This document shows positions 4,379 to 53,870 of a stretch of DNA of 64,000 nt, piece after piece (the first letter of the stretch is position 1; every line of letters starts with the position of its first letter). Both the position numbers and the translations under genes were made by a program. The DNA is taken from the NCBI GenBank assembly GCA_947034895.1, contig OX344761.1, forward strand, positions 33,864,863 to 33,928,862, given 5' to 3'. The notes beneath the pieces are model-generated. The model saw only the letters and a program-made list of their open reading frames with translations. It was not told where the DNA came from and made no database searches. The stretch comes from Rhytidiadelphus loreus (lineage: Eukaryota; Streptophyta; Bryopsida; Hypnales; Hylocomiaceae).

Positions 4379-4550
4379 GAGGCTGGTCGAATCCCCGTGA
4401 TGACTTGACAGCAACATGAGTCTGACGAGAGTCATCCCTCCGGATGAACGAAACATCCCTCTGTGGCGGTAGTTTATTGCCGTGAAGCTATCCAAACCAG
4501 AAGCTGGCGATGGCGGTTTGGAGCTTGCAGCAGCAGCAGCAGCTACGGCG

Positions 4551-5285
4551 ATGACAGTCATGGCATCCTTGACGAGCCTTTCCATTTCGCCTCTGCGTCT
4601 CGGCGAGTCTTCCTTCTTCTCCACCAATTTCCTCACACGATCGAAGAGCACCATCAATTCTTGTCCCACAACCGGTCGCGTAACAATTCGAGCAGAAGGC
4701 TTCGACTTGTGGCACATTCTCGGTGGCCGGGGTTTGCAAGGCGGTGAGGACGGACTCCGCCAAGAGAAAACCGAGAAGCTCTTCCTGGACGCGAAGAACA
4801 GCCTCCCCGTGGAGCGCAAGCAGACGGGTCCCGTGGAGGGCAATGTGGACGCCTTGAAAGCTCTCCCGGGCACATTCGACAAGGAGCTCGGGGGATTGAC
4901 AGGGGGGTTTCCTGGAGGGGAGAAAGGTTTGGTGCAATTCTTGGTGGCGAATCCACCTCCGGTGAAATATTCCCAGGAGATGCAGATGCTGAGGGACAGC
5001 GTGGCCACGCCGGTGAAGGCGAAGAAGATTGCACCGCCGTTGCTGATGCCGGGGATGACGGTGATTGTGAAGTCGCCGAGGAATCCGTATCATGAATTTT
5101 CAGGTATTGTGCAGAGGGTGACCGATGGGAAAGCAGGGGTGCTGTTCGAGGGAGGGAATTGGGATAAGTTAGTGTCATTTAGGTTGACGGAGCTAGAGAG
5201 GACGTCGAAAGGGCCGCCGATGAATAATCCGAAGTCGGCTATTTTGGAAAGAATGGCGGTGCCGGAAGGGAACTCTGCGAGTTGA
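4551..5285 (+). CDS. NdhS: NDH complex subunit S, chloroplast precursor (NdhS/CRR31)
   Basis: A single exon of 244 codons. In known plants NdhS is nuclear-encoded and forms part of the ferredoxin-binding site of the chloroplast NDH complex, which drives cyclic electron flow around photosystem I at the thylakoid. Visible marks: a Ser/Thr-rich N-terminus typical of a transit peptide, a plausible processing site near VTIRAEG, then [24 protein letters not shown], and an SH3-like C-terminal domain with [23 protein letters not shown] and LFEGGNWD. These blocks match the family closely. ATG at 4551 is the first in frame; the second ATG at 4560 (ATGGC context) is an equally good start. The frame stays open upstream to 4482 with no ATG. 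The coding region is clearly more GC-rich than its flanks. The gene is intact. Confidence 0.93.
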
Positions 5286-40997: not shown

Positions 40998-41007
40998 GAC
41001 ATAGGGG
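40998..41007 (+). other. Target-site duplication, left copy, of the 12.85-kb MULE
   Basis: GACATAGGGG occurs here and again at 53861-53870. The match extends three more bases leftward (TTG), which I assign to the right terminal repeat by alignment. Ten bases is within the usual 9-11 bp of MULEs. Confidence 0.85.
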
Positions 41008-41060
41008 CAGGGTTGCTATTTTGTGAGCCTGTGAGCCTGCGAGCGTGAGTGTGTGAGCCT
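41008..41060 (+). repeat. Left terminal inverted repeat of the MULE
   Basis: It starts CAGGGTTGCTATTTTGTGAG, followed by repeated GAGCCTG and GAGCGTGAG words. About 11 of the first 16 bases and all of TTGTGAGCCTG match the right end in inverse orientation. Confidence 0.8.
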
Positions 41061-41503
41061 ATGAGTATGTTAAGATATATTTTTGAGAGTTTAAAGTTGA
41101 TGAAGTACCCATGACCGTGGACTTAAGAATAATGACGTGACCTCAGAATATTAGGCAGGAAAGGGGAATGGTCACGAAAATTGTGTTTCTTAATGAGTTT
41201 AGGTCATGCTTAGTGAAAGTCATTTTGAATTCTGTTGTCACAAATTCCGTTTATTATAAATCATATTTACATTGAATTTTTAAATCCCTGAATTTTTTTA
41301 TGAGAAAAACAACCTTTCATTTCAGTAACACTAGAAAATAATAGATAAGATTGTGACCGAAAATCCACTAATTTTGCGAACTAGATTACCCTTCAAATAC
41401 AATAATGAAGGGTACATAGAATGTCGATAACTAAGGCTTAGAAAACATTGTATTTTAGATGATAAAATGAAAGGCATATAGTGTAATGCAACCCCAAAAC
41501 AAA

Positions 41504-44500
41504 TCAAGTAGAAGATGTTGACATAGACTCAGAGTGACCAGTACTATCAAACGATGATGTCTCATTGTCTGATCCTAAGGCTATCACATCTACAAACTGC
41601 AAGACGCGTGGATCTACTACACTAGAATTTCTCCTCACACGCGGATTTGATTGACATGCAAATGTTGAAGCTAAAGCCTTTGCATAGGATGGCAGCACAA
41701 ATGACTTCTCCGGGCTTGGGAAAAAACCAGGTAGAGTGAAGAAAGGACGAAGACCGGCCTCTTTAGAAATCATGCTGCAATCCCAAAAAAAAATTTAAAT
41801 GATATGCAAATGAACAAAGTAATGTTAAACAAAATGGACAGAAATAGAACTAAACTTAGAAAAAAAAATTAGTTCTGGATAGACTTACTTACTGAATCGG
41901 GATTTCTTCACGATGTGTGGAACTTCAACTTCCAATGCATCTTCATCATCAGAATGTAATACCACCGTTGCAGTAGAGGTGGGAACACTTGAATGGATCC
42001 GAATCATTGGGGCCAAAATGGCATGGAAGATGGCTTGGTCCTCCTCAAGTGCAACGATGTGCCTACTCAGAATCCTGCAAGCGTGGATGGAGGCACCTAA
42101 TTGCATCAACCATATGACAACAACAAAGTCAGTAAACAATACTTAAAGGATCTAAGCAGAATTGGTAAAAGGATTAGCAAAAAATAGATAGTCAAGGGAT
42201 CTCATATTACCAATAGAAGCAGTGCAGTCCAAGACAACATCATTTGGTAATGAGCATGCTTCAATCAACATTTGTAGAAAGCGAGGATCCTTTTCTCGCG
42301 CCCCTCTCCAAGGCTTGGAGTTGTTGTCCATAGTCAAAGTTTCAACCTTTGTAAAATTCTGTAGTACATCGTCGCGTGCTACATCCACACCAAGTTTCTT
42401 CAAGGTCGGACATGGCTGGAATTTGAACTTAGAAGGGGCAGCCCCTGGGAAGTTCCTCACCAACAAAGCAATTCCAAATCGTTGGGTCTGCACAAATAAA
42501 TTCAATGAAGAACAATGTAGACATTAGATCTATGTAAATTGGAAAAAAATACAGAACCTTCATTTAAAAAAATAAAAACTAAAACAGAGGCATGCATACA
42601 ATTCCAGAGATATATGAACAGACGTCGGATTTCATTACCGTTGCAAGGATTCGAATAAACTAAACAAGTATCATCAGAAGATGCGTGGAGTCAATAAGGA
42701 AATGGAAAAAGAATATACCGTTCTTGAGGGTGAAACCGGTGAGGCCAAATGTAGCCAGTTCATTCCCCACCAATCCTTCATCTTTTCAAAAGAATATGTA
42801 GTACTGTACTTCAGAATAGTGGCTTTTGTAACAGCTCTCAGGGGATAGATAATGATAAGACCTCCGTCATCATGGAGGTGGCCATCAGCAAACTCAAACA
42901 ATGACTCCAACCAAATGGGGGAGTCCATGTTCCACTTGGGAATGCTTGTGGAAGGCACCGACAAATCAGGGACAGGCAAACCCTCTGGCATGTCAGCAAG
43001 AATAAGGTCAACGCGCGGTTTATCACTCTTCACTCCTTTAAAAAAGCGATGCTTCTCCCCTTTATGCTGCAACAAATGGACGGATGTTAGTAAAATAAAA
43101 AATGACCTTAAAAAGAGTATATATAAAGGTAATTTGAAGTAGATTAGGGAAAGTGCTAACCTTATCAATAAAGTTTAGGATGTCGTGATACACTTGGGGT
43201 AGTGGATCAGCCAACACCTGTGTAAGAGAAAAATTGAGAATGAACTCATTGATGGAAATTTCTGAGTCATTTAAAAATCCCACAGCTCCAGGTCCATGCA
43301 CCATACCACCATCACTTAGTGAGACATAATCAGCATCACGCTTGGTTCCTCGTGAAACAGATTGTTGGTGTTGGGAGCCCTCGTCTTTAGTAGAAGAGGG
43401 CGGAATTTGTTGCTTCCCCTTCTTGCCTTTTGTCTGCTTAGCTGTAGACGCCTCTCCAGTCTCTGCAAGTTTAGAAGCCTTCTTAGCCATCCTCTCCTTC
43501 GCCTTCTCCACTGCCTCTGCATTCTTCAATGCTATCTTCTTGTCAGCTTCCTCTCTCTTCTTCATAGCCCGAACTTTTGCATCTTCATCAAGTCCTGCGA
43601 ACTCGTCAATGTCTTCTACCACCTCATGAGAATGAATAGATTGTTTCAGGTACTCCTCTGATGGTGGCGTGAACTCCGGTGGGCAATCCAAATACCAAGC
43701 GCCCGACTTCAGATGTACACTCGTCCACCATTTTAGCTGTGAGGTAGAGAACATACAATGCTCGGACGAGACATCCAACCACGTTCCAAGAAAAGGAGGC
43801 AGATCTCGCTTCGAAATGGCTCCTTTTGGAAGAAGCTCGTATCTGAAGTACCTATAGGAACAAATTATGTCAATTCAAGGAAAATAAAGTTTGTATTTGA
43901 AATGAAATACAATCGTGAAGAAGTTCTACAAATAATTGAAAATAAGCATACCGGTAGAGCACACGTTTCACAACTAGATCGTTGTCCTTGTGTTTTTTGA
44001 AGTCATCAGACTTCCTAAAAACGTCTTGCCCCTTAAAATTGTGCAGGAATGCTTTGTCCCAAACTCGAATTCTCCATCCTTCAATGTAATCTCCAAAACT
44101 CTCAGGCTCCTTTGGAGATTCCATAGACAATGCCAACTGGTCCTTCTTGACAATATCATCAAACATTTCTAACCCAACATCTTCAATCTGTAAATTACAA
44201 GGACTTCAAATATCAATCAATTCCACATTTCCAAAAATCATCCACTGAAGCAAATAGCAGAAGGAGATAAAGAAATTAGAGTACAGTGAGAAACACGTAC
44301 CCCTACATACCAACAAGCCTTAGTCAAGAAGGACTTTAACTCATTCTCTCCGACCGGCTTAAGGGGAAACCTTCTTGCCTCTCGTGTTTGAACTGAAGAA
44401 TTCCACCACCGCAACCACTTGACCTTGTGTTCACTCTTCACGTTGCAAGTGGCTATCATCTGTAACTTGTCCAGAGTCATTTCTGGTGTTATATTCGAAC

Positions 44501-47500
44501 TCCAATGGCGCTCGATCTAGAAGAAAAATAATAATCATATTAGAACAATTCATCAAGTAGAAGAACCAACTGAAATGAAGAAGGGCTTTGATAATATCAT
44601 CGTACCTCTCTCAGCCACTCCGTCCCTAGATTGGGATTTGCGACAGCTGTCAACTTCCCCAATTTCTGGGTCAGTTTTGTGGTTTGCTCTTTAGTACCCA
44701 ATCTCATTGCAGCCAGGATTCCTTCCTCGGATTGATCCTCACCCGTAGTGACTTCCTTGTATTTCCTAACTGCCACATCCGCTGCAGCTGCAATCTCGTA
44801 CTGCACAATGTCGTAGAAATTAGTAGTGTAATTTCAATAAAGGAAGGGACACTAAAACACCATACATTGATTGAAAGATGAGTATTACCCGATAAATAAA
44901 TGAAGTGAAAACCTCCAGAGACATTGTGTACCAACTCTTCCTTGTATTCTGTTGGCACTGAGTCATCTCGGAGTCACTCAAATGCTCGGCAAACTTATCC
45001 AAAGGGAGGACACCGTACTTCTATACATGATAAAGCGTGTGCACAAGGCTGGTCTTAATAAACGAATTCTCCGTTTGCCTGAATAAAAAAAAGGTGATTA
45101 GTAGAAGGCAACAAGTGATGTGAATGAAGGATATACAAAAAAAGAAGTCAAGATAGAAAGACATACTTGTTTATATCATGCATAGCATGCATGACCTGCC
45201 CGATTTTGCCCTTGGTCTCTAGGATTATGGAATCCACGGAAACGTGCCACTCTCTATCACGAGCATGGTGCTTGGAAATGTATGAGGACCAAGCAAGAAG
45301 CCTGTGATTACCGTCACAAACGAAAAATTTGGAGCCTTCATAATTGCTCAGGCCGGGCGTTGCCTGTAAGTTGGCATTGAATTCATCATTCTCAGCATTC
45401 CATATAGGTCCCCATAAATCCTTGTCAGTATCAGAAACCTCCTCCGTCTCTCCCTGCTCATTCGTGACAGACACATAGAAAACACTAGATCCATCTCTGT
45501 ATCCGTGGATGAATTCTTGCTCAAGTCTGGTTAGGTCACAATGAAGTGCTGGACGGACCATTGGCATCTGGACAAGTCTACACAAGGGAATTCTCAAATG
45601 AGATATCAAATGAGGTTTTAGTCTCAATGACGCTATAGAGGCAACATAGTTAACTTTCTGGGATCTTCTGAATGCATCCTCGGACGTAAAGTCCAGATTA
45701 GAATTATCCATATCATCATCAGTTATGTTATCCTCCTCAACGCAATCCACCCTAGCGGCATCCACATTGGGGCTCGCAGGAGGCGGAAGTTGGTTAGTAT
45801 CCTCCATAATTTCCTGGAACATTATCAAGCATGAAATTGGAATTAAATTCCAGTCATCAGGATATGAGAGAATTTTCAATCCAGACATCCCCTATCACCT
45901 AAATCCAATCCCAGCCTTGCTTCCCCTCGGCCCCTACGAGATCCCTGAGTCCCACCTACATTCAGTTAGACAGCCCCTGAACATTCACTCCCCGCCCTGT
46001 CCTCACTTCCCCTCGGCCCATAAGGGATCCCCGAAGCCCACACACAATCAGACAGACAGCCCCCGATCATTCACTCCCCGCCCCGTCGTCACTTCCCCTC
46101 GGCCCATACGGGATCCCCGAAGCCCACCCACATTTAGTCAGACAGCCCCCGATCATTCACTCCCCGCCCCGTCCTCACTTCCCCTCGGCCCATAAGGGAT
46201 CCCCGAAGCCCACGCACAATTAGACAGACAGCGCCCGAACATTCACTCCCCGCCCCGTCCTCACTTCCCCTCGGCCCATACGGGATCCCCGAAGCCCACC
46301 CACAGTCAGTCAGACAGCCCTCGATCATTCACTCCCCGCCCCGTCCTCACTTCCCCTCGGCCCATACGGGATCCCCGAAGCCCACGCACAATTAGACAGA
46401 CAGCCCCCGATCATTCACTCCCCGCCCCGTCCTCACTTCCCCTCAGCCCATACGGGATCCCCGAAGCCCACCCACAGTCAGTCAGACAGCCCCCGATCAT
46501 TCACTCCCCGCCCCGTCCTCACTTCCCCACGGTCCATAAGGCATCCCCGAAGCCCACGCACAGTCAGTCAGATAGCCCCCAGCGTTCACTCCCCGCCCCG
46601 TCCTCACTTCCCCTCGGCCCATACGGGATCCCCGAAGCCCACACACAATCAGACAGACAGCCCCCGATCATTCACTCCCCGCCCCGTCCTCACTTCCCCT
46701 CAGCCCATACGGGATCCCCGAAGCCCACCCACAGTCAGTCAGACAACCCCCGATCATTCACTCCCCGCCCCGTCCTCACTTCCCCTCGGCCCATACGGGA
46801 TCCCCGAAGCCCACGCACAATTAGACAGACAGCCCCTGATCATTCACTCCCCGCCCCGTCCTCACTTCCCCTCAGCCCATAAGGCATCCCCGAAGCCCAC
46901 GCACAGTCAGTCAGATAGCCCCCAGCGTTCACTCCCCGCCCCGTCCTCACGTCCCCTCGGCCCATAAGGGATCCCCGAAGCCCACGCACAATCAGTCAGA
47001 CAACCCCCGATCATTCACTCCCCGCCCCATCATCACTTCTCCTCGGCCCATAAGGCATCCCCTTGGCCCACCCACAGTCAGTCAGATAGCCCCCAACGTT
47101 CACTCCCCGCCCTGTCTTCACTTCCCCTCGGCCCATACGGGATCCCCGAAGCCCACGCACAATCAGACAGACAACCTCCGAACATTCACTCCCCGCCCCG
47201 TCCTCACTTCCCCTCGGCCCATAAGGGATCCCCGAAGCCCACGCACAATCAGACAGACAGACCCCGATCATTCACTCCCTGCCCCATCCTCACTTCCCCT
47301 CGGCCCATACGGGATCCCCGAAGCCCACCCACATTCAGTCAGACAGCCTTCAAACGTTCAATGCACACCCAAAGCATCCCTCCTACGGCCTAGACGCAAG
47401 AGAATTTTGAATGGTTAAAGAAGAGAGGATTCGAAATGCTTACGGAGGTGTTTGCCAGTTCGGTCTGAGGGTTGATATTTGCATCACCAACGACCGGAGT

Positions 47501-48564
47501 ACTCCTCCCATGTCCTTCACTTTCTTGCTCTTCCGCTGCCGCACTTCTTGTAGCTGGCCTTCTCCCCATGGCCTTCTTCCGCTGGAAAGGGAACAACGTC
47601 ACGACCTACAATCAATTTCTGTATTCTAAGGGAGGGGGGTTTGCAGGTCGGGTGGCAGCAATCAAAACCTAATGCAAGAAAGAGAAATCGCAATTCGGTT
47701 TAGGTAGTAGAAAGAACGGGGAAGGAAGGTGAAGCGGGAAGGCGGAAGGGGAGGCAAAGAGGGCGGAGAATCGGGGAGGGGGAAGGCAGAAGGGGAGGCA
47801 GAGAGGGAAGAGAAGCGAGGAGCACGAGGAGGTGGACGCCTGGGAAGCAGGGAGGTAGAGGGGGCGGAGAACGGGGAAGCAGGGAGGCATATAGGGCGGG
47901 GAAGCGGGAAGGGGGAAGGGGGAAGGGGGAATCGGGTAGGGGGAAGGGGGAAGGGGATGGGGGAAGGGAGAAGCGGGAAGGGGGAAGGGGGAAGGGGGAA
48001 GCAAGAAGGGGGAAGATGAGAAAGAGAGGGGACCAAGAATTCATTTATTCATATAATGTATAGTTCACTTAGTAGATAATTTACAGCAGTCAAGCTCTCT
48101 ACAGAATCCTCTGGAGCACATGAAATGAAAAGCTAAATTATGCACGGCAGAGTGTTCTACAAATGTTTCTATCAGTTTATTATCCAACAATATTTTATAA
48201 ATATGGTACACTGCTATATTGCGAAACTACCTTCACTCCGACCGCAGTTCAAGTATCTTACCTCACACTCACTTGCACTCGTCATGGACGTCATTCGGAG
48301 CTTGCAAACATTGAACTCAGGAATCCGAATACATGGTAACTTAACGGCCGTTCTTTGCATTTCTTGATCAATACTATTATGATCGTTGACATTTTGAGAG
48401 ACGGATTCACTTCGTGCAGGCGTACTTCTTACTACAATTTGCTTGTATCTACTCCTAGACCTTCTCAACTCCTTTGGCGAGGAGTACAACAGTTTCCCTC
48501 TCTTCCTCCTCTTCCTAAAACTACGACATGATCCACTTTCGGCTATACATATTGCAGCCTGCAT
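41504..48564 (-). CDS. ParB-like plus N6/N4 DNA-methyltransferase-like fusion protein of the MULE
   Basis: Exons chain with perfect phase: 48262-48564 (tentative), 47444-47581, 45167-45813, 44889-45078, 44606-44800, 44301-44516, 43952-44187, 43161-43851, 42719-43066, 42211-42487, 41889-42096, 41504-41774. Without the first exon the start is ATG 47569 and the protein has 1134 codons; numbers below use that start. Residues 125-257 resemble the ParB/sulfiredoxin domain, with FVCDGNHRLLAW (DGNHR at 209-213). Residues 600-690 are a Lys/Glu-rich coiled coil with nuclear-signal-like runs. Residues 768-1010 resemble a beta-class methyltransferase: DLILADMPEG stands where DPPY is expected, then DDGGLIIIYP, then VVLDCTASIGAS followed by RHIVALEED, the SAM-binding strand and acidic residue. 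DPPY to DMPE makes catalysis doubtful. Codon 277 is an in-frame TAG (45021-45023). Domain calls are from motifs only. A role in marking or recognising element DNA is inference. Confidence 0.7.
45021..45023 (-). other. In-frame TAG in the ParB/methyltransferase-like gene
   Basis: In exon 44889-45078 the frame that matches both neighbouring exons reads LYHV, TAG, KYGVLPLDKF. Both sides look coding. Either the copy carries a nonsense mutation or the exon is spliced differently (donor within CAG|GTCATG, acceptor TATAG|AAG keeps frame). Confidence 0.7.
45905..47360. repeat. GC-rich 86-bp tandem array, about 17 copies, inside an intron
   Basis: CTTCCCCTCGGCCC recurs at 46006, 46092, 46178, 46264, 46350, 46436 and so on to 47294, mostly exactly 86 apart (a few 85). 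Units carry ATCCCCGAAGCCCAC and CATTCACTCCCCGCCC. Two versions of one stretch, CAATTAGACAGACAG and CAGTCAGTCAGACAG, tend to alternate, which suggests a 172-bp dimer. By the gene model the array lies in the intron between exons 47444-47581 and 45167-45813. Confidence 0.92.
47690..48045 (+). repeat. Polypurine low-complexity tract
   Basis: The plus strand is almost only G and A, built from GGGAAGCGGGAAGGGGGAAG-type words; the minus strand is polypyrimidine. It falls in the tentative first intron of the ParB/methyltransferase-like gene. Long open frames on both strands arise from the composition, not from coding. Confidence 0.85.
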
Positions 48565-49468
48565 GAGACTAACTTAATAGATCTAAAACGGTGTAACGTC
48601 CGTGACCTGAATGTATGCAGTGCTGCGAGTGTATATTCTAATGTGAGGTTCATGTGAACTCAAAAGAACAACCCCTTCTGTATTCACTACATTTTTAGAG
48701 AATACAACCGGTTTCACTTATAGGATTCCTAAATGTACTAAGTGTTATCAATTATGTATCAAAGATTGCTTCAGAAATCATCCTAAACCCTACCTTTTGA
48801 TTTCTGACCGATCATCGTCAGCAAGTTCTCTGAAATGAAACCATTACTCCGGTCCTTATATATCCCGATGAATCAATGTCGACTGCCAATGCCATCACAT
48901 GTATATTTTCTAGTGGATCCACTTAAATTTGTTAACTGCAGAATCTGTTTGCATATCGTATCTTTTGGCTTCCTACAGGAGAATTGTCCGTATATTTTCT
49001 CAAATAATTATGGATATGGCATGCAGTCTAATAATGAAATGAGTACTATACATTATTTTAATCATTAATTAGATCTAATGGATACCCTCACTCATCAAAT
49101 GACCGAAATTAATTTGTGATATTTACCCAATCATAATATGATCCGACTCTTCAAATCCATTGCCAGTTGATCGTATTTTGTTTTAAGTTCATTTATGACT
49201 TCCGTAGCATGAACAATGTTTTGTTCACAGAATCCATTTGAAAATTACCTCTCAAAGACGGTTTTAGGTTTAATATTGTGGGGGCCACTGACAACCATTC
49301 ATTGTCATTACTTGTGGACACTACATGCCTTGAAATTTATATCCGTTCTCCAATCGAACGGATCCGTATAAGTTGCACAAACACACCTCTCATTGTCTCT
49401 CAGTCTCATAGGTTCGACGAGTTATAGTCATAGTATTGAACTTGATATACATAGTGAACAAGGTGTCC
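48565..49468. promoter_or_regulatory. Divergent promoter region of the two MULE genes
   Basis: About 900 bases separate the tentative minus-strand ATG (48564) from the transposase ATG (49469). No coding exon is seen. Both genes probably start from here. If the minus-strand gene starts at 47569 instead, the intergenic region is about 1.9 kb and includes the polypurine tract. Confidence 0.5.
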
Positions 49469-52400
49469 ATGGCTTCCATTCGAGCAAATGGGCATGAAAT
49501 TCCACTTGTTCTTCCTATTGGGGTAGACGGGTATGCTACATTGCCTTCGCACCTTCTGTACGTCCGATTCGGTTTTATGCAGTCTAGTATATATGTCAAA
49601 GAAGAGGTCATGTCCGATTCTGGACACCTTAAGGAGTACGTCCACATCTTAAAGTTAGAACATGAGACTGGTTCTGTCTGGCACCTCCGTGAAGGCCGCT
49701 ATAGAGCCTACGACTTGTCCACTCCCCTGATGGGTGTTTCCACTGAGATTTTACCTCGCCAATCCGACCACTCTACAGTGGATATGCCAATCCCTCGGCA
49801 GGGAATCCGGTCTTCTCAGGATTTAGACCATGTCACAGTTGCATGTACTCCAGTAGTCCTTTGCCGTGTAAAACAAGAAGTTCTTGGCCCTATCATAGAT
49901 ATATCGAGTGAGTCTGAAGGAGAGTCCCCTAGTCAGCCAACTCTTCAAGTCGAGTCTCGGAGTGAAGATCTTGACAATGTCCAGGAGATGTCTTCAGATA
50001 TGTATCACACACCATCTGGAAATCTTGATCTTCCAATTCATCCTCGCCCCCCAACGTATCCAAATAGTATAGGAACGATTAGCATAGTTAGATGCCTAAA
50101 GAATCTTGCATCAGTTCCGGGGTCTAGGAATGAAGTTGTTGCATTAGACTTCGATTCAGTAATCCACCACAAAGTGCAGTATCTTCCAGCAGATTTTGAT
50201 GGAGACGTAGTATTCGAATTACCGGCGCTTCAAGCTTCGTCTTCATCATGTAGCGGTGGGAATCTACAAGGCATGGATAAACGATACGATGGTCATGCTT
50301 GGTGTCGAACCATGACATCCAATATCCACAACCAAGAGAGGCTAAAGTTCAGAAAGTCCTCTTGTGCGGGACATCTGGTATGTACTAATCCTGAGTGTCA
50401 GTATTTGAAGCGGTTCTCCAAAAGAAACGAGTCACAGTGGTGTGGATATACTAGTGCTCCATTCCAAGTTGGTGTTTATCCCCCGAAGGATTCAAGTCTT
50501 CTTTGCAAGATCTGTAAACATCCCCCAACTTGTGTTAGTCTGTGTGACGCTAGAATATATTATGTTTTCAGCGATACCGCGTTAATGACTAGAGCATGCA
50601 TCCATTTAGGGAATCACAAGCATCCTATAGCAACAGGAGTTTGTAGACAGTCTTTAGACACTATTTCCGGTCTTATCGCGAATGAGGTTGCAAAAACACC
50701 TACTGCCACTAACTCTACTATTGCCCTAGCAGCTAGTAAGCAATTTCTAGACAGACAGTTGATACACAGTGGTGATGGGCCTAAGGATATGTTGCGAGGA
50801 AAATTATTAAAGGATGTCATGGACAAGTTCCAGAGACTAAGTTCTCCTAACATCCGTAATATCATTACTTCTTTTCGTAGCACTGGCAACGGGGGGATTA
50901 TTGACAGTATTATGAATATGAAGCGGAATTTGAAGTTTGACTACATTCATGACAGTGTCTTCCCTGGACAAGGGAAAGAAAAGGTGTATCTTTTTAAGAT
51001 GTTGGTGGAAGGTCCTGGTAGTGGAGTCGACTTGGTGAAACAAATGCAATCTGGTGGAGATCTAGAGAACGCATGGATTATGTTTGACCATGTCAAACGT
51101 GTTAAGAATTGGACCACTATGGCTTGCCATGTCTATGACACCGGTTGCAGGAAGGTCATGACAATTGCCGTTTGTGACATGCAATCCAAAGACACTGAGG
51201 TGCAAGTCATTATGTGGAGGTCCTTGAACGAGGTCATGAGACGCAATGGCGTGCCAAATCCAAACTTCAAGGGCTTTATGGTTGATAGTGCCCAAGCGAA
51301 TTGGAATGCAGTTCGCATTGTATATGGTACGGGGGATTCTAAAATAGAGATGGTGAACCGTGAACGTACATGTCTCCTACATTGGAGTACCTCGTTGCAT
51401 CGCCATACTCAAAAACTAATCAAGCCAGACATGCAATTCCAACACAATCGTCTTTGCAAGCAGTACAAAGATTCAAAGACTATGGAGGAAGCTGAGACAC
51501 GATACTTGGCGATCCGCTCTTGGTGGCTATCATCTGGAGCAGCCTCAGAAGATTCTCTGCGCGAACTAGAGTTGTGGCTTGCATTTTGGCACTTCCGATA
51601 TCGCCAATGGGGCGGGTTCATGCAAATGGTACTTCATTGGAAATCCTTTCTCTATCTTTGTATGTGTTTCTTGTAGATCCTTCAGTATCTTATAGTTTCA
51701 TTTCTGTAGAACTACTTGCATATCATTTTAATTATTTTCCGTCCCCCCAAAGGGCTAGTATATACTTCAAACAGATCTCTGTTGACTACTGGGAGTGGGG
51801 GCCTTACCTCTCGGTGCCGATGGGAACCTGGACCTCTTACTCGATAGATCAAAATCGCAGTGGTTTACAAAGATGAGGTGTGTAGTAGGATTATTTTTCT
51901 TTCGCATGTTTTTATTTAAAAGCTAATTACTCATTTGGTTTTCTTCTAGGGATTGAGTCTCGATGAAATGGCAGACATGCCATCATGTAACTTATCGGAA
52001 ACAGTTCACAACAAGTGGTTGCAACAATCTGGTAATCGCGGTAATGATTTGTTTGCCGCCACTTGTGATGATTGCATTCGAGCCTTCATGCAAATGACCA
52101 ATTATCGAGCATTCTTGAATGGTACAACATCAAGGTCCGGGCCATCAAAATCAGAGTTGAAGTTAAAAGGCGCTAGACGAAGTGGTGATCCAAAGAAGAT
52201 TGCGGAGGCCCTGAATGACCTGCCTGGACAAGATGGTCTTGGAACACGTATTCCACATTTGGAAGGTGAAGAAGTATTTGGTAGCAACAAACATAAGCTT
52301 GACTTACCTATCGGGTCAAATGGTGACTCTCATCGACCGGACAAGGTCAACTTCTCTCAACCACGAGTGCAGATCCGCTCTACATGTACGTCCATAGTGG

Positions 52401-53356
52401 TTTCTAATGAACCTAGTCTAGTAGTTGACTTGTTGCATGTACCTCATGTCTCCACTGCAATGGAGAGTGACTGTGACACATCACAGTGGCACATTGCAAG
52501 ATTATCTCATAAATCGAGTTGTAAATGTCACGCTCAACAGCGAGGGACAAACATTCGTTGCACTGCCAAAATTGCGAAGGGATCTAAAGGTACTCCAGCC
52601 CCAACGTATCGTGGTCGCAAGAAGCAATATGGTGGAAACAAGGAGATCATGACCGACTTCTGGTTTTGTCCAGATGACATTGACCGATGTGTAAGAAGCT
52701 CCAAACGTCCTTGGGTAATTGATTGGCTCCAAGTTCCAGACATATGGCCAGTGCTCAATGACACTAGTTTGACTCGTCAAGAAACCCTACTATTGCAAGA
52801 AGCTGGCTTTCTACTCCAAGAACGCCCACCTATGTCACCTCGACGGTTGTTTACGATGTCTAATGTGTTCAAGGCAAACTTTTACAATGAAGCTAGCCCG
52901 GTGAATGCGGACACATATCCAACATCTCGAAAAAACAAGACCATTCGACGTATTGCAAATGCTCCGACTACAGAGCATCGCAATAAATGGGAAAGTGCTG
53001 CTAATGTCAAAGGATTGATTTTGGGAGTTACTATGCTCCCCTTACCCGGACTTGGAGCCATTATCACCCTTCAAACTGGAACAGAGCCCACAAAAAAGGT
53101 TTATCGAATTACACTTGGCATGTATTCTGAGTGCACTTGTCCTGATTTTGTAGACATGGCCGTCTCCGCAATTGGTGGCCGGCACCAATATGTGAGTTGC
53201 AAACATCTTTACTATTTATTTCGTTACTTCTGCAAAATGAATCAGATAGATGACAAGTTCATCCATTCTCCAAGTTTTAGCTTCAATGAGGTCAAGTTGC
53301 TTCTCATTAGGGCTGGTATCATCAAGGTTACAAGCGACAGTCATGAACACGCTTAG
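49469..53356 (+). CDS. MULE-type transposase with GCM/FLYWCH-like region and SWIM zinc finger
   Basis: Exon 1 (49469-51628) gives 720 codons and ends at ATG|GTACTT. The last exon (51950-53356) gives 468 codons and a TAG. A short exon near 51776-51895 is needed between them, but no frame passes cleanly, so a frameshift or a missed splice site is likely there. N-terminal half: a Cys/His-rich region with KFRKSSCAGHLVCTNPEC and CKICKHPPTC, and HLGNHKHPI, like GCM/FLYWCH DNA-binding domains. Core: DTGCRKVMTIAVCD (Asp 557) and FKGFMVDSAQANW (Asp 606), with EEAETRY near Glu 673 as candidate DDE residues. C-terminus: SECTCPDF and SCKHLYYLF form CxC-x19-CxH, a SWIM finger, typical of MULE transposases. 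It would act in the nucleus on the element ends. ATG 49469 is the first in frame. Confidence 0.8.
51629..51949 (+). other. Intron-exon-intron region of the transposase gene, unresolved
   Basis: After the exon 1 donor, one frame reads VDYWEWGPYL near 51782 and another reads GADGNLDLLLDRSKSQWFTKM near 51825-51890. The second ends in phase 2 at a good donor (ATGAG|GTGTGT), but the next exon starts in phase 0 (CTAG|GGATTG). The shift may be a real frameshift. Confidence 0.55.
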
Positions 53357-53860
53357 AAGTGCAATAGTACTTTATTGATTGGCATTTCAGATTTGAAGAT
53401 TGTAGACTACAATCTGAGATATAGCTTCAGAATTATCACTTGTTATTTGGGCCAATACTGTTATTTGCAAATGTATTGAATACAGACCATTTTTTGTCTG
53501 AATTCCAATTTTCATATACTTCAGTTTTTTTGTCTTTAAAATCTATGCTCTATTATATTAAGAAATTCAAAAAATCAAAGAATTTAAAAAATCCTGAGCC
53601 CTATACCACGCTTTTAAGTCTCGAGCAAAGCGTCCGTGGTCGTCACTACTTTGTAACAAGCCCACGGTAATGGGTCCACGGTAATAAGCACCCTAAATCC
53701 TAAAATAGTCACAACACTGGAAATTGAAAAAACATTGTCTCTTTTTAGAAGAAACTGGTCTCTTTAAAAAAAATTTATATATACATGAATTCCATGCTCA
53801 CAGAACCCAAGCTCACCGCTCGTAGGCTCGTGCTCGCAGGCTCACAATCTAGCACCGTTG
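53357..53860. other. 3' subterminal region and right terminal inverted repeat of the MULE
   Basis: It contains CCCACGGTAATGGGTCCACGGT (near 53661-53682), an inverted partner of the left subterminal ACCGTGGAC. The last 60 bases form the right terminal repeat, ending CACAATCTAGCACCGTTG. Confidence 0.7.
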
Positions 53861-53870
53861 GACATAGGGG
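53861..53870 (+). other. Target-site duplication, right copy, of the MULE
   Basis: GACATAGGGG, identical to 40998-41007. It joins directly to the coding relic that continues rightward. Confidence 0.85.

Follow-up and report, generated by a model that had tools for sequence, protein, structure and literature searches.

A divergent gene with ParB-like and methyltransferase-fold domains in a Mutator-like element lineage of Rhytidiadelphus loreus

What use would a DNA transposon have for a large spliced gene that joins a ParB-like to a DNA-methyltransferase-like domain? The question is raised by a 64-kb stretch of the moss Rhytidiadelphus loreus (assembly GCA_947034895.1, contig OX344761.1, positions 33,864,863 to 33,928,862; hereafter the window), in which a first-pass annotation had described a complete 12.85-kb Mutator-like element (MULE) with a second multi-exon gene transcribed away from the transposase. 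The window belongs to a 94-Mb contig of a 407-Mb assembly, within which all genome searches were run. We show that the two divergent genes are standard equipment of this MULE lineage and are co-inherited in this genome, and we consider the two-gene MULE itself almost certain.

Two divergent genes in one Mutator-like element

The element is flanked by a 10-bp duplication, GACATAGGGG, and bounded by imperfect terminal inverted repeats, in which positions 41014-41036 pair with 53832-53854 (23 nt, 87%) and, in a second imperfect pairing, 41030-41058 with 53818-53846 (29 nt, 79%). Such repeats are characteristic of MULEs, and the duplication lies within the 8-11 bp range described for them (PMC6446971). 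A search with a 301-bp left-end query, for which 40 of 284 first-look candidates were scored, returned 43 match rows, 23 beginning exactly at query base 9 (window position 41008) and 7 at base 8. From these matches ten other places were fetched, and five of them have both ends, both genes and exact duplications of their own of 9-10 bp (ACTAGTGTTG, CGTACAAAAA, CCACCATAA, CTGTCAACAG and ATTACAATGG). The six full copies, window included, share their ends with small differences, and their duplications, all exact, measure 10 bp in five and 9 bp in one; the copy C2:64M is internally rearranged. Large parts of the element are matched at C3:7.67M, C4:50.7M and C4:45.9M, with inserts or ending beyond the fetched stretch, and at C5:794k and C1:11.28M the left end alone was found (0.7-1.2 kb matched, within the stretch fetched).

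The transposase is encoded by two exons (1188 amino acids) and its reading frame is open in the window copy. It is an RNase-H-like DDE transposase related to the IS256 family, with ISCth4 of that family as its best fold match, at modest scores. In the Pfam scan Transposase_mut was found in 2 of 51 transposase relatives (best E 0.034, a weak match), and the window protein gave no match to a MULE or Mutator profile. Duplications, ends and the modest fold match together support the MULE identity proposed for the element. A transposase model of three exons, the middle one near 51753-51877, was rejected: the join tried gave stops, no frame fitted and the stretch varies as introns do.

The pairing of the two genes was followed in searches with the ParB-encoding exon of the second gene (best 150 of 1389 candidates scored) and with the DDE part of the transposase (best 150 of 1337). 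The first set compared the top 109 ParB matches with the top 96 transposase matches (81% or more; one further match, of 83%, falls in the second set). The nearest transposase was divergent within 12 kb for 78 of the 109 ParB matches, divergent at 12-40 kb for 5 and neither for 26, one of which has a non-divergent transposase within 12 kb; in 200 random placements the number within 12 kb averaged 0.145 and never exceeded 2. On the transposase side 83 of 96 matches have the second gene as divergent neighbour and 13 lack it, in the sets compared. The remaining 41 ParB and 54 transposase matches yielded 8 further divergent pairs (7 within 12 kb, 1 at 28.6 kb) with ParB identities of 50-54%, and one more pair in another orientation at 24 kb. 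These counts are lower bounds, because cross-set pairs were left uncounted and candidates beyond those scored were unseen. Pairing at scores of loci rules out a host gene nested by chance. The genome search proposed earlier, with the ends and both proteins, thus recovered both the five further two-gene copies and the divergent pairing at many loci; the two outcomes named as fatal to the proposal, transposase copies never accompanied by the second gene and a second gene that is a single-copy host locus, are not what the genome holds, since 83 of 96 transposase matches have this partner and the second gene forms a large family.

The second gene is, as first described, large, spliced and divergent: 11 exons with GT-AG introns and 1134 codons run on the minus strand from 47569 to 41507, opposite to the plus-strand transposase. 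This exon model is supported by a reading frame kept across copies, by the dN/dS values given below and by the two comparisons that follow. Matched exon by exon, L030 is 68-90% identical and L029 42-64% for single exons, and one L029 match, at 36%, runs through introns. Against C3:7.67M the exons are 94.0% identical and the introns 81.8-92.0% with one at 97.4%, so that 8 of 9 introns fall below the exons. The window copy is interrupted by one stop, in exon 3, which is lacking in five others aligned there; the claim of a complete element therefore holds for its ends and duplication and fails for its second gene.

MULEs have a tendency to pick up fragments of host genes (PMC6446971), and with the stops and frameshifts of close copies this would suit a captured host or foreign passenger, functionless for the element. 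We regard such a passenger as very improbable, as the second gene is kept across subfamilies down to ~50% identity, its copies are far too many for a fresh capture, and its ratio of nonsynonymous to synonymous substitution rates (dN/dS) is 0.22 against the 93%-identical copy C3:7.67M (0.30-0.56 against four closer copies). Between the window and this 93%-identical copy both genes are under purifying selection.

The lineage is old, judging by its diverged subfamilies, and recently mobile, judging by near-identical copies. Nine transposase matches have one identical score and open frames of 770-771 codons, and probably represent a recent burst in a sister subfamily. The C2:1.4M copy (L015, L016) is 97.7% identical to the window in its left part and 95.0% in its right part, with a dS of ~0.11 in the transposase versus 0.03 in the second gene, and looks like a recombinant of two subfamilies.

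ParB-like and methyltransferase-like domains

Exon 2 has the fold of the ParB N-terminal domain and sulfiredoxin, which bears out the ParB-like domain first proposed for the gene. Among 83 ParB-exon sequences D167, G168, N169 and H170 are invariant and R171 is kept in 90% or more; we take this DGNH-R motif to be the arginine-containing active-site motif of the ParB/sulfiredoxin superfamily. Weak Pfam matches among the 83 members fall in 18 families, including DUF1015 in 6 members (best 0.002), DndB in 1 and DUF6551 in 1, all three presumably ParB relatives. In a public protein collection the ParB exon has 336 relatives and the transposase 50, mostly nameless, so that the lineage probably extends beyond this genome. 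Among transposase and ParB relatives, P0038 and P0119 come from contigs of the same length (9903), a hint of pairing elsewhere, although a single coincidence of length may be due to chance. Of 7991 candidates scored in a search with the full-length second protein none matched, most likely an effect of length, given that exon 2 alone gave 336 proteins. A pattern scan for ParB-exon relatives found none in viral contigs or prokaryote genomes.

The methyltransferase-like domain also received support, from profiles and from phage proteins. PF01555 matched three members with E values of 2.8e-4, 2.8e-5 and 1.1e-4, with scores below the curated cut-off and covering mainly motif I, and a CcrM profile matched at 1.5e-4. 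A tblastn search against 50,697 phage records (E up to 0.1) found 8 records, CR3 and CR8 twice each, of which 7 carry a DNA methylase or methyltransferase annotation and 1 has none; the longest match covers 88% (E 1e-2). In the alignment to the phage methylases VDLILADMPEG lies over VDMVLTDPPYG and the motif I regions are collinear. Motif IV precedes the S-adenosylmethionine (SAM)-binding motif I, which is the permuted order of the beta class, and D-C-T and G of motif I are kept where read, except for N in place of D in L042. By these comparisons the second gene carries a predicted DNA-methyltransferase-fold domain of the permuted beta class.

An active N6-adenine or N4-cytosine methyltransferase would mark element DNA directly, as proposed for the Dam-like enzymes borne by DIRS elements, and the beta-class domain order, the largely kept SAM-binding motif and the PF01555 and CcrM matches all favour one. 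We nevertheless think it improbable, on account of the low and mainly motif I-limited profile scores and of motif IV, which reads D-x-x-E-[GN] at 12 of 12 loci (window, L029, L030 and L036-L044); the stretch taken at L045 lies to the other side of the ParB match and does not count as a negative. This D-x-x-E aligns beneath the DPPY of two phage enzymes, the catalytic pattern [DNS]PP[YFW] is absent and the aromatic residue found in the standard enzyme is lost. We read the conservation of the glutamate between variable neighbours as constraint rather than decay. Since motif IV lacks DPPY, base methylation by the second protein may not occur; the DNA-marking role suggested at first remains plausible, and is weakened in its simplest form because the replacement is found at all 12 loci.

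The intronic tandem array and the role of the second protein

A feature that the first-pass annotation had not recorded as a conserved part of the element is a tandem array inside intron 1 of the second gene, 1.4 kb long in the window, where no further array of 200 bp or more was found. Nine of nine copies with intron 1 in hand, window included, have such an array (86- or ~96/172-bp units, ~2 to 26 copies), and in all five diverged elements chosen one lies between the ParB exon and the transposase, with units of 85, 150, 150, 320 and 127 bp. In these five, where exon 1 was not located, we infer that the array lies in intron 1. All 14 elements examined, which are not mutually independent, thus have an array at the position of intron 1, and its units differ between subfamilies, with little in common by eye beyond TCGG-like cores.

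Many of the repeats contain palindromes. TCGGNNCCGA occurs in 4 of 7 unit families, a number reached by the best of all patterns with 4-nt arms in 1 of 1000 shuffles. Its counts in the array and in the rest of the stretch are 7 and 1 for C3:7.67M, 5 and 0 for C4:45.9M, 3 and 1 for C2:64M, 3 and 1 for L031, 3 and 0 for L034, and 14 and 1 for L035. L032 and L033 have none; in their arrays CTCTCG-N4-CGAGAG occurs instead, 1 and 3 times, respectively. Plasmid ParB loads at parS sites, which in the F plasmid are tandem repeats.

We propose, at even confidence, that the second protein is a self-recognition factor of the element, or anti-silencing module. The ParB part would load on the element's own array, at parS-like palindromes present in many repeats, and then spread or hold on; the methyltransferase-fold part would then modify or shield element DNA, with the outcome that host silencing is blocked or that the transposase finds its own copies. 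The conserved intronic array is the strongest pointer to this role.

The proposed role fits that of VANC in the VANDAL MULEs of Arabidopsis. In VANDAL21 the motifs of the VANC protein often lie in tandem repeats of fast turnover, including repeats within VANC and VANB introns, and divergence is greater for VANC than for the transposase VANA (PMC5735166). The element described here is likewise a MULE with an extra spliced gene and fast-changing tandem arrays in an intron of that gene, and such arrays in non-coding parts were found in all 14 elements. Its accessory protein also diverges faster, the ParB exon being ~74% identical where the DDE part is ~90%, and ~52% where it is 77%, although different domains are compared. 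Because of these VANDAL21-like traits (intron array, changing units, faster-diverging accessory protein) self-DNA recognition appears the most likely role, which would fit that of VANC and would have been reached with unrelated domains: VANC is a DUF1985/DUF287 protein, whereas the second protein combines ParB and methyltransferase folds, and neither DUF matched the two pieces scanned (exons 2-11 of C4:697k, E up to 5). Anti-silencing has been demonstrated for VANC and is proposed here for the second protein.

A more specific version of the self-recognition proposal, which we put forward only tentatively, is a eukaryotic transposon lineage with a plasmid-style ParB/parS system. A ParB-fold clamp loaded at the parS-like array in its own gene would carry along the element a methyltransferase-fold module, with D-x-x-E as a new and conserved active-site motif, and so mark each copy as self, with ParB and array co-diverging into subfamily-specific pairs.

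The left terminus contains short GTGAGCCT-like 8-bp repeats at 41015-41073, and similar GGCTC-containing units lie at 53818-53860; they are possible transposase or cofactor sites. Repeats of this kind in both termini could be bound by the second protein if it acts as a transposition cofactor, as suggested for mudrB; its ParB-like part would then nick or bend DNA or build a synaptic complex at the ends with the transposase, silencing being uninvolved. The two-gene layout is that of MuDR, in which mudrB is apparently required for integration (PMC6446971), a bacterial ParB-methylase nicks DNA (PMC5512222), and the second gene is paired with the transposase. On its own, a cofactor role leaves the array in the intron 1 position unexplained, and we consider this role possible but rather unlikely.

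Several observations weigh against a self-recognition role, in addition to the altered motif IV. The array could be a passive intronic minisatellite. The window array itself lacks TCGGNNCCGA, having instead TCGG-N14-CCGA 11 times (0 elsewhere in the window), and the palindrome was picked post hoc; its counts cover the copies named above. ParB profiles of Pfam matched neither the window ParB exon nor any of the 83 members (E up to 1). The second gene is broken by at least one stop or frameshift in 6 of 6 copies read through, window included, although many ParB exons elsewhere in the genome have no stop. Finally, the transposase dN/dS between the window and C4:542k, C4:975k and C4:697k is 2.1, 1.8 and 5.2, respectively, on few changes; decay alone is not expected to push this ratio above 1.

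Annotated features and relation to known systems

The features of the element are collected in Table 1. Between the two genes a GGGGAAG 7-bp repeat lies at 47870-48020, and is present in C4:542k too. Elsewhere in the window, an open reading frame at 4473-5285 (plus strand) resembles by eye a chloroplast NDH subunit (NdhS-like), as would suit a land plant.

Table 1. Features of the element and its flanks, in window positions
Feature	Positions	Strand	Basis
Whole MULE element, 12,853 bp	41008..53860	.	end matches, copy comparison, flanking duplications
Target-site duplication, left copy (GACATAGGGG)	40998..41007	.	end inspection
Target-site duplication, right copy (GACATAGGGG)	53861..53870	.	end inspection
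Left terminal inverted repeat region, with GTGAGCCT-like 8-bp repeats	41008..41058	+	end inspection, left-end matches
Right terminal inverted repeat region	53818..53860	-	end inspection
Second gene exon 11 (C-terminus, stop just below)	41507..41774	-	matched in L029, L030
Second gene exon 10: remainder of methyltransferase motif I region	41889..42096	-	
Second gene exon 9: methyltransferase SAM-binding motif I (DCTAS.G)	42211..42487	-	
Second gene exon 8: methyltransferase motif IV region, D-x-x-E for DPPY	42719..43066	-	
Second gene exon 7	43161..43851	-	copies L029, L030 compared
Second gene exon 6	43952..44187	-	copies L029, L030 compared
Second gene exon 5	44301..44516	-	copies L029, L030 compared
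Second gene exon 4	44606..44800	-	copies L029, L030 compared
Second gene exon 3; in-frame stop at 45021-45023	44889..45078	-	
Second gene exon 2: ParB/sulfiredoxin-fold domain, invariant DGNH motif	45167..45813	-	
Tandem array, 86-bp unit x 16.7, inside intron 1 of second gene	45920..47348	.	
Second gene exon 1 (start codon)	47444..47569	-	ATG and donor open in 5 of 7 copies matched, besides window
Intergenic region common to both divergent genes, GGGGAAG-rich repeat	47570..49468	.	
Transposase exon 1: N-terminal ubiquitin/RBD-like part, zinc-binding-like region, DDE domain	49469..51628	+	
Transposase intron (GT...AG)	51629..51949	+	
Transposase exon 2: SWIM-like CxC...CxH zinc finger near C-terminus	51950..53356	+	motif by eye

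Extra genes in MULEs are already known (PMC6446971; PMC12730594). With MuDR/mudrB and other MULEs with a second open reading frame the element shares two genes per element and a 9-10-bp duplication and, judging by eye, perhaps a SWIM-type transposase (PMC6446971). Extra domains tabulated there include PMD, OTU, SET, FAR1 and zinc fingers, unlike the ParB and methyltransferase folds found here, and the words ParB and methyltransferase are absent from the main text of that paper. A similar domain pairing is that of prokaryotic ParB-methylase fusions and polyvalent proteins, in which a ParB/sulfiredoxin (Srx) domain is joined to an adenine-methylase-type domain; one such fusion, Bce_0392 of B. 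cereus, has nicking activity, and domains of this kind are common in mobile elements (PMC5512222). The gene in R. loreus differs in being eukaryotic, in its exon number and length and in its diverged motif IV. Mobile elements encoding DNA-modification enzymes are also represented by DIRS elements with Dam-like or Dnmt3 enzymes (PMC5890265) and by fungal transposons with TET/JBP (PMC12730594), which are other element classes with other enzymes; the word ParB is absent from both papers. Among the entries listed by literature searches aimed at the combination, judged by title and abstract opening, none deals with a MULE carrying a ParB domain or DNA methyltransferase.

Few transposons are known to counter host silencing, and VANDALs are the best known case among MULEs. 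The family described here seems to have arrived at a VANDAL-like layout, with an accessory gene and a changing intron array, using parts known chiefly from conflicts of bacteria and phages. A further question that it raises is how DNA is affected by a methyltransferase fold whose DPPY is replaced by D-x-x-E. With many naturally paired variants of ParB and array in one genome, self-recognition by a transposon becomes testable by swapping the pairs.

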